Source: Hyphomonas oceanitis SCH89
GTDB taxonomy: Bacteria; Pseudomonadota; Alphaproteobacteria; Caulobacterales; Hyphomonadaceae
Direction: 5' to 3'
Length of the DNA: 64,000 nt
Assembly (NCBI RefSeq): GCF_000685295.1
Contig: NZ_ARYL01000008.1
Location: forward strand, 1 to 64,000
In this document: piece by piece, positions 14,023 to 14,918 of the stretch
How the letters are laid out: each line of letters begins with the position of its first letter
Position numbering within the stretch: the stretch's first letter is position 1
Notes under the pieces: model-generated
The model's input: only the letters and a program-made list of their open reading frames with translations
The model's database searches: none
What the model was told of the DNA's origin: nothing
Program-made: the position numbers and the translations under genes

Positions 14023-14049
14023 GAAGCCGCCCTGTCGAGGGGCGGCTTC
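14023..14049 (-). terminator. Hairpin terminator on the minus strand between the 26-codon ORF and kdsA
   Basis: A perfect 10-bp stem GAAGCCGCCC/GGGCGGCTTC (14023-14032 with 14040-14049) closes a 7-nt loop. On the minus strand it is followed by TTTGATT, a weak T-tract. It lies about 58 bp past the stop codon of the 26-codon ORF and 88 bp before the kdsA start, so it could end a short transcript from that ORF. Confidence 0.6.
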
Positions 14050-14106
14050 CGTGAGCCCATGGGGCTAGTCAGGTCCGGGCGGCGTTACAGCGGCCCTACC
14101 GCGTCT

Positions 14107-14187
14107 CTAGGTGTTGATTGGAGGCTGCTCCAGCCAGACACCATAGGACACAGACCCAACGGCCTCACCTGGTTTCTCACTCGACAT
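14107..14187 (-). CDS. Putative 26-residue small protein with an extremely strong ribosome-binding site
   Basis: Reading leftward from 14187, ATG is followed by 25 sense codons and TAG. The peptide starts MSSEKPGEAV and ends GVWLEQPPINT: a mildly acidic/Ser-Gly N-terminal part, one Tyr, one Trp and a Pro-Pro near the end. It has no hydrophobic signal or membrane segment. The start is preceded, at ideal spacing, by a sequence perfectly complementary to the 16S rRNA 3' end (separate entry). Terminators lie on both sides (14327-14351 for the upstream gene, 14023-14049 after it), so it appears to be its own short transcript. I do not recognise the family. It could instead be a peptide-encoding small RNA; the coding call rests on the ribosome-binding site and clean stop. 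Confidence 0.55.
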   Translation of the reverse strand: MSSEKPGEAVGSVSYGVWLEQPPINT

Positions 14188-14202
14188 GGATCACCTCCTT
14201 TC
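14188..14202 (-). promoter_or_regulatory. Extended Shine-Dalgarno sequence matching the whole 16S rRNA tail
   Basis: The minus strand reads GAAAGGAGGTGATCC directly before the ATG at 14187. This is the full complement of the usual bacterial 16S rRNA 3' end (GGATCACCTCCTTTC), with AGGAGG six bases from the start codon. Typical genes in this window show four to six matching bases. Confidence 0.75.
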
Positions 14203-14315
14203 AAACGTGCTGCTTGCACGGACTTTGTCCCGGACCATCCAGAACAGGACGAAGTTAAGCATGATTTGCGCCAACACCAAGTTAAGAACGCGCTTTTTGC
14301 GTGAACTTTTTGGTT

Positions 14316-14351
14316 GAAAAAGAAAAACGCCCGGACGTGACGTCCGGGCGT
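14316..14351 (-). terminator. Strong Rho-independent terminator after the RcnB-like gene
   Basis: A perfect 11-bp stem ACGCCCGGACG/CGTCCGGGCGT (14327-14337 with 14341-14351) with a 3-nt loop runs, on the minus strand, into TTTTTCTTTTTC. It lies 31 bp after the stop of the gene at 14382-14918. Confidence 0.92.
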
Positions 14352-14381
14352 GAATCAAGTGATGAAATTTCAGGCACTTAG

Positions 14382-14918
14382 CTAGTTTGTACCGATCACT
14401 CCAATGGCGAGGCCGATGATGGCGCCGGTCGCCACGGAGGCGAGAATCGCATCGCCCCGGTCATAATCGCGGGCCCAATAGTAACCTCGCGGCGGGTCAT
14501 AGAGGCCGTAGCGGCCATAGTCGCGGATATAAACGGTCTGCGGATGGGGGTGATAATATCCCCCAACGGCATAGCGCGGGACGTAGCGCGGCGGTGGCGC
14601 ATAGTAGCGTGGCGGGGTGTAATAGACGCGTGCTGGTGCCCGACCGTAATAGCGAGGGCCGCTATAGTGGTTATGGTAGTTGTTGTGACCGCGGTAGTCA
14701 CGACGGTCATCGCGGCGATGGTGACGCCTGTCGTCACGGCGGTCATCCCGGCGACCATCGCGCCTGTCATGGCCACGATAATCATTCTTGCCGGAATAGT
14801 GGCCTCCGCGGTCATCATGGCCGCGTCGGCCCTGGTCGGCGCTGGCCATAGGGGCGATCAACAAGCCAACCGCTGCAGTCGCCGCTACAAGACGGGAAAT
14901 ACTCTTGAACAGTTTCAT
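14382..14918 (-). CDS. RcnB-like secreted protein rich in Arg, Asp, His and Tyr
   Basis: The 178-residue product has a signal peptide (about 1-27, ending 'PMASA'). A low-complexity segment (about 30-80) of repeated Asp-Arg-Arg and His units follows (DRRDDRR and variants). Next is a Tyr/Pro-rich part and a C-terminal domain 'YDPPRGYYWARDYDRGDAILASVATGAIIGLAIG' ending in a Gly/Ala hydrophobic stretch. The 'PPRGYYW' core with the terminal hydrophobic segment matches the RcnB/YcgR-like periplasmic family (Pfam RcnB). RcnB affects Ni/Co homeostasis in E. coli, but most relatives are uncharacterised. The start has GGAGG upstream. The His-rich tract could bind metal, which is inference. Confidence 0.8.
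   Translation of the reverse strand: MKLFKSISRLVAATAAVGLLIAPMASADQGRRGHDDRGGHYSGKNDYRGHDRRDGRRDDRRDDRRHHRRDDRRDYRGHNNYHNHYSGPRYYGRAPARVYYTPPRYYAPPPRYVPRYAVGGYYHPHPQTVYIRDYGRYGLYDPPRGYYWARDYDRGDAILASVATGAIIGLAIGVIGTN

Follow-up and report, generated by a model that had tools for sequence, protein, structure and literature searches.

A 26-codon reading frame in the Hyphomonas oceanitis SCH89 window analysed here (64,000 nucleotides of contig NZ_ARYL01000008.1, to which all positions refer) is, on sequence evidence, the 5′ part of an independent small RNA of about 200 nt, and we infer that this RNA is transcribed in H. oceanitis. It carries a Shine-Dalgarno (SD) sequence complementary to the entire single-stranded 3′ tail of 16S rRNA, and relatives are found over much of the Alphaproteobacteria. 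On balance we favour an independently transcribed, ribosome-loaded small RNA in which it is translation rather than the peptide that is selected; since most of the peptide sequence can drift freely, docking and short translation would be the features under selection.

The docking site and its reading frame

The SD sequence GAAAGGAGGTGATCC (14202–14188, minus strand) is a 15-nt perfect complement of the genome's own 16S tail and the only copy in the genome outside the rRNA. Directly 3′ of it lies an ATG at 14187 (minus strand), which opens a frame ending in a TAG at 14107 (14107–14187, stop included) and translated as MSSEKPGEAVGSVSYGVWLEQPPINT (26 aa), with start, frame and stop position all conserved. 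The 3′ region of the genome's own 16S reads ...GCGGCTGGATCACCTCCTTTCTAAGG... and the gene ends in GGCTGGATCACCTCCTTTCTAAGG; therefore 16 nt pair (TGGATCACCTCCTTTC of the own 16S) when the U of the AUG is counted. The 14-mer AAAGGAGGTGATCC is present in two copies in the 4.28-Mb genome, one in the site at 14188–14202 and the other antisense to the 16S gene, while the reversed-pattern control gives 0 matches. The anti-SD duplex of the site, at -29.7 kcal/mol, is the strongest in the window, exceeding the next (-20.2) by 9.5 kcal/mol, and the site accounts for all matches to the 16S tail of at least 10 nt in the window. Accessibility calculated from the partition function gives a median probability that the SD is wholly unpaired of 2e-4, versus 3e-5 in shuffles, and is uninformative. 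A relic or antisense copy of the 16S gene was considered as the source of the site and rejected, as only the tail complement is common to both and a conserved start, frame and terminator follow it.

Conservation and distribution

A similarity search with 14060–14330 gives matches in 53 of 101 genomes (the window's own included), covering nearly all of the window's genus together with several sister genera and best conserved over the SD and the ORF, which argues that the site is more than a chance occurrence. The alignment of these relatives contains two leader hairpins with co-changing arms, an invariant SD, the ORF and a terminator. The original prediction of a 16-base match to the 16S tail ahead of a 26-codon ORF is thus confirmed on the genome's own 16S end, and the extreme pairing that it stressed proves to be conserved among relatives, as befits an initiation site kept by selection.

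Over the class, the pattern GAAAGGAGGTGATCC-N0-3-RTGTC is found in 50 of 385 sampled genomes, always in single copy (reversed control, 0), and in a sample of the phylum AAGGAGGTGATCC-N0-2-RTGTC occurs once each in 46 of 86 genomes of the class and in 0 of 213 sampled other Pseudomonadota. Among the matches listed, named records with the motif belong to Sphingomonas, Novosphingobium, Mesorhizobium, Bradyrhizobium and Methylobacterium, and further ones to Azospirillum, Roseococcus, Defluviimonas and Brevundimonas. The number of motif-bearing genomes is a lower bound because Caulobacter proper carries variants, GTGACC or GTGGTCC, in which the 16S complement is trimmed at its 3′ side; for the same reason AAAGGAGGTG alone is near-invariant. 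In the Caulobacter-like loci (L083–L090, L094, L095, L101, L103, L106 and L110) the 3′ side of the complement is altered to GTGACC, GTGGTCC or GTGGCC and AAAGGAGGTG is kept, so that not all 15 nt of the complement can be required.

Relationship to the CC2171 RNA

At gathering thresholds, Rfam recognises nothing in the whole window except one tRNA. In E-value mode the element aligns to RF01867 (CC2171) over 14024–14210 (minus strand), full length and collinear with the model (1–159 of 159), at 19.6 bits (E = 0.024–0.038). This score falls short of the curated gathering score of 75 bits, and we therefore claim homology rather than membership of the family. The gap is bridged by intermediate relatives giving graded full-length scores, which reach 41.5 (L050) and at best 48.8 bits (L039) within the window's own family, up to 143.6 bits in another family of its order and 76–90 bits in several members of other families of the class (90.5 and 81.7 among them), the gathering score being exceeded by Caulobacteraceae and some other members of the class. 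Thus the window RNA, which had at first been assigned to no recognised family, is by these sequence comparisons a diverged homologue of CC2171.

The RF01867 consensus begins with cAAcaAucGAAAGGAGGUGAUCCAGUGUC and has a closing helix, joining a segment near the start codon to one before the terminator, and a terminator hairpin, all of which recur in the window RNA. The window copy also has the 5′ signature GAAAGGAGGUGAUCC-N-RUGUC, with the spacer N missing there and present in sister genera, and shares GAAAGGAGGUGAUCCAGUGUC with the family consensus. It differs in starting with AUG rather than GUG, in its extra 5′ hairpins and in its interior. At the Caulobacter CC2171 locus the putative GUG start lies in GAAAGGAGGTG..GTGTC and would open a frame of about 22 codons. 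Rfam 15 added one covarying pair to RF01867 (PMC11701678), which has been predicted in Mesorhizobium huakuii (PMC5596092), and no paper on its function was found in the literature searched. Judged from locus numbering alone, the CC2171 RNA may be CCNA_R0051, a 209-nt RNA with its own promoter between CCNA_02253 and CCNA_02254 (PMC6237742); R0051 is absent from the list of Hfq-enriched sRNAs (PMC11005374).

RNA structure

The fold of the window RNA has a z-score of -3.5, and the consensus of 16 Hyphomonadaceae sequences comprises 40 pairs, of which 23 show changes on both sides in one sequence or more. In the predicted fold (all elements on the minus strand), hairpin 1 of the 5′ leader (GUUCUGGA-UGG-UCCGGGAC, 14227–14245) has arms that change together in relatives, for example to GCGCCGGA/UCCGGCGC, and hairpin 2 (CGUGC...GCACG, 14206–14220), which is specific to the window's genus, changes from CGUGC/GCACG to CGCGC/GCGCG. 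At the 3′ end, the stem pairs of the intrinsic terminator GAAGCCGCCC-CUCGACA-GGGCGGCUUC, which is followed by a U-rich tail (14023–14049), covary in relatives.

The closing helix joins nucleotides 8–12 of the ORF (GUGAG, 14176–14180) to CUCAC just before the terminator (14051–14055). The consensus has this RF01867-type helix, with GUGAG/CUCAC in 16 of 16 Hyphomonadaceae and a compensatory series across the class. Invariance makes the helix uninformative within the window's family; elsewhere in the class it takes forms such as CAUUGUC/GACAAUG, CAUGGUU/GACCAUG, AUGAGAUU/AAUCUCAU, CGAGAUC/GAUCUCG and GAAUUG/CAGUUC, and others. A 5-bp partner lies within the 14 nt before the terminator for 23 of the 49 distinct pentamers found at ORF nucleotides 8–12, against a mean of 3.9 and a maximum of 11 in 2000 draws of partner regions from other types. 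In the minimum-energy fold of the window RNA, the partner of CUCAC is not 14176–14180 but another GUGAG lying 12 nt downstream of it (14164–14168), and a recognisable closing helix is missing in 26 of 219 members. An initiating ribosome covers the first codons of its frame. Because nucleotides 8–12 of that frame form the closing helix, a docked 30S subunit and the closed RNA should be mutually exclusive, and we propose that the RNA acts as a switch between them.

Constraint on start, frame and peptide

All 30 Caulobacterales loci chosen by the RF01867 model, and not by the motif, carry RTG followed by TC at the right spacing (29 GTG, 1 ATG), with frames of 19–30 codons throughout. The first stop of frame 0 falls at codons 13–36 in 152 of 156 non-redundant members and never earlier, and first stops fall in that interval in 53 and 55 of the 156 in frames +1 and +2, counts to be read with the provision that most of these loci were picked by a motif containing the start codon and that clades are not fully independent. 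The stop is TGA in 82, TAA in 44 and TAG in 30 of them, at a median of 54 nt before the terminator stem, and in the window's family its position is constant at codon 27, as TAG, TGA or TAA. Because the start is kept, the position of the stop is kept and an ORF of the Azospirillum type appears to have become a protein gene, we argue that initiation and the short frame are selected and that the frame is presumably translated.

The amino-acid sequence presents a different picture. In Hyphomonadaceae the dN/dS of frame 0 is 0.76, against 0.84 and 0.85 for frames +1 and +2; for the GTG group it is 0.87 (other frames, 0.92 and 0.77), and the 18-codon group gives 1.47 (other frames, 0.71 and 0.45). 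These values are rough because synonymous sites are constrained by RNA structure. Frame 0 thus does not appear to be singled out as protein-coding in the usual sense or to be under clear purifying selection, and since it lacks a clear synonymous bias the amino-acid sequence is evidently not kept. Searches of Pfam and NCBIfam and a plasmid tblastn with the window peptide gave no match, and a conserved micro-protein was rejected as unsupported by dN/dS. Of the frame conservation on which the original prediction had staked its case, one half holds, the frame being kept while TAG, TGA and TAA interchange, but the synonymous bias that was to accompany it is not clear, and its view of the peptide as the product finds no support; the peptide itself is probably not the product.

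Two observations concern the later part of the frame. Towards the end of the ORF (14109–14187, minus strand), the sequence GGAGCAGCCTC is almost invariant in Hyphomonadaceae and some other families and, as it occupies another frame in L078, reads as an RNA element, a predicted hairpin loop. In L116 and L217 (the latter Azospirillum) the ORF in the corresponding position encodes 56–59 residues with the closing helix and terminator kept, and in L278, L279, L116 and L217 the ORF behind the SD/start motif has 55–59 codons and a signal-peptide-like N-terminus, resembling a small exported protein. By their sequences, it seems that a protein gene has developed out of the sRNA ORF, perhaps on two occasions.

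Genomic context

Upstream of the RNA, an RcnB-like gene with an RcnB Pfam match (14382–14918) precedes a terminator hairpin with a T-run (14328–14350, minus strand) that isolates the RNA unit, and between this hairpin and the ORF the block TTAACTTGGTGTTGGCGCAAATCATGCTTAA (14255–14285, minus strand), conserved in relatives, is the probable promoter region. The suggestion that the RNA is an independent transcript lying between hairpin terminators is therefore well founded in the sequence, the unit being flanked on both sides. A consensus promoter expression matches only 40 of the 156 non-redundant members and is therefore uninformative; a sigma-54 promoter in TTGGCGCAAATCATGCTTA was considered and rejected, as its defining GG and GC vary in relatives. 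A weak suhB/MmgR match (14313–14378; 25.9 bits versus a cut-off of 41) overlaps the terminator of the RcnB gene.

In the window's genus, the unit usually lies between the RcnB-like gene and a kdsA-like gene, the latter downstream on the same strand beyond the terminator. No kdsA-like gene was found beside the RNA in the flank of G004, of which the RNA is 99% identical, or in the sister genus, so the RNA is not a kdsA leader. In this closest relative (L004, G004:C19) unrelated sequence directly 3′ of the terminator replaces the kdsA-like gene, marking a possible second point of insertion or rearrangement. Across orders no conserved neighbours of the RNA gene were found; the flanking genes differ, encoding SMC and MutS in Sphingomonas, a CMAS-type methyltransferase and a Tad/VWA protein in Mesorhizobium, an RNase R-like protein in Bosea and ExoD in Brevundimonas.

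In three genomes, an insert splits the RNA gene itself, exactly at the SD/start site; it measures 2.0 kb in G003 (L063, G003:C3:811500-817700), 3.2 kb in G012 (L064, G012:C48:10900-18200) and 4.1 kb in G024 (L065, G024:C63:41700-49900). The direct repeat GAAAGGAGGTGAT..ATGTCGAG stands at both junctions of the three cassettes, and their right ends are similar (..ATTGTAATCAATGACTTTTTT); among 200 genomes of the order, a sample without G003, this right end occurs in G012 and G024 only. The 4.1-kb cassette encodes Drt3a and Drt3b (E = 1.6e-93 and 2.6e-176). No family match was obtained for the proteins of the 2.0- and 3.2-kb cassettes (441 aa; 169 and 329 aa), which may be new defence genes, and no recombinase was recognised in any of the three. 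The SD/start site of the RNA gene appears to act as a hot spot at which defence-type cassettes insert.

Discussion

In the mechanism that we propose, a 30S subunit would be captured through full pairing of the SD with the 16S tail, initiation would follow at the AUG or GUG and the short frame (13–36 codons in nearly all members) would be translated, the ribosome stopping before the 3′ structure and a frame of arbitrary sequence serving its transit; no simpler model makes use of every conserved part. Where 30S subunits are free, the RNA would be opened and translated as a ribosome-gated switch; where they are scarce, the closing helix would re-form in the absence of a ribosome and the RNA would close into a different form, with altered stability or target pairing. 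More tentatively, we put forward as a possibility that throughout the class this RNA captures 30S subunits over a sequence-independent frame, that their availability toggles the helix and that the RNA serves as a sensor of ribosome occupancy or as a ribosome sponge.

Other roles have to be weighed against this reading. The RNA could be a trans-acting base-pairing sRNA, dual-function or ordinary, with an incidental short ORF whose translation only protects or tunes it. Rfam files the family as sRNA, the RNA is structured and it forms its own promoter/terminator unit with no conserved neighbours, all of which agrees with such a role; however, conservation is highest in the 16S-tail complement with the start codon, a segment that contains no obvious seed, and a conserved start, frame and stop are unexpected in a plain sRNA, so that we find this role rather doubtful. 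Less likely still is a functional micro-peptide of 18–26 residues whose sequence merely diverges fast between clades. Such a product would explain why frame and length are conserved and why anchor codons stay in frame (GACCTGG in 35 of 35, GAGCAGCC/GAGCAACC in 62 of 65), and the signal-peptide-like protein of 56–59 residues at the same position in Azospirillum fits with it, but the dN/dS of frame 0 is near or above that of the other two frames, the window peptide belongs to no Pfam or NCBIfam family and in one family (L078) the anchor lies in another frame.

The extent of the complement, which takes in all of the single-stranded mature tail and ends where the tail ends, could also reflect an action on 16S rRNA itself, either in its 3′-end maturation or by serving as a decoy for 30S subunits; translation would then be secondary. 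A Sinorhizobium meliloti study shows that YbeY, the 16S 3′-end nuclease, leaves double-stranded substrate uncut (PMC6943124), in keeping with such an action. Yet the spacing of the start codon, the frame and the stop are also under selection, a single chromosomal copy would face very abundant rRNA and Caulobacter members shorten the complement on its 3′ side, and we judge this role improbable. A leader-peptide attenuator of the kdsA-like gene, to which the position of that gene on the same strand past the terminator in the window's genus might point, is contradicted by synteny and retains hardly any likelihood: no such gene was found beside the RNA in G004 or in the sister genus, the neighbours differ in every other order and no link to one regulated downstream gene is found across the relatives.

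The favoured reading, a ribosome-loaded RNA selected for its translation, has partial parallels in known systems. Like the window RNA, rnTrpL/peTrpL of S. meliloti is a small independent RNA with a very short translated ORF (PMC10117765); unlike it, rnTrpL is leaderless, starting at the AUG, and is part of the trpE leader, whereas the SD of the window RNA is maximal and a partner gene is lacking. Extended SD sequences in Staphylococcus aureus likewise pair over more than the canonical length, including ahead of small ORFs and leader peptides (PMC13009471), but add two base pairs in many genes, in contrast to the present RNA, which belongs to another bacterial class and pairs with practically the whole tail at one locus in each genome. 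RF01867 itself is catalogued as a non-coding Caulobacter sRNA, whereas the window RNA appears, from its sequence, to be translated and class-wide. Against translation, ribosome profiling in Caulobacter is reported to show most intergenic ncRNAs there to be untranslated, two earlier-predicted ncRNAs being translated (PMC4117421). A frame that would be translated without constraint on its peptide, combined with a putative start-proximal closing helix, appears to be undescribed in the literature searched.

An RNA catalogued as a Caulobacter non-coding sRNA is thus spread over much of the Alphaproteobacteria and has at its core a ribosome-docking site as strong as such a site can be, with a short conserved frame behind it. 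Only 24.6% of genes in Caulobacter have a Shine-Dalgarno sequence (PMC4117421), and in a class where many genes are without one so extreme an SD is a conspicuous exception. Should translation not be the function of this RNA, there would still be the gain of a broader family model, a structure and a test based on its start codon; should translation be its function, the RNA would provide a simple genetic handle, a single locus tractable in laboratory strains, on how cells sense or buffer free ribosomes.
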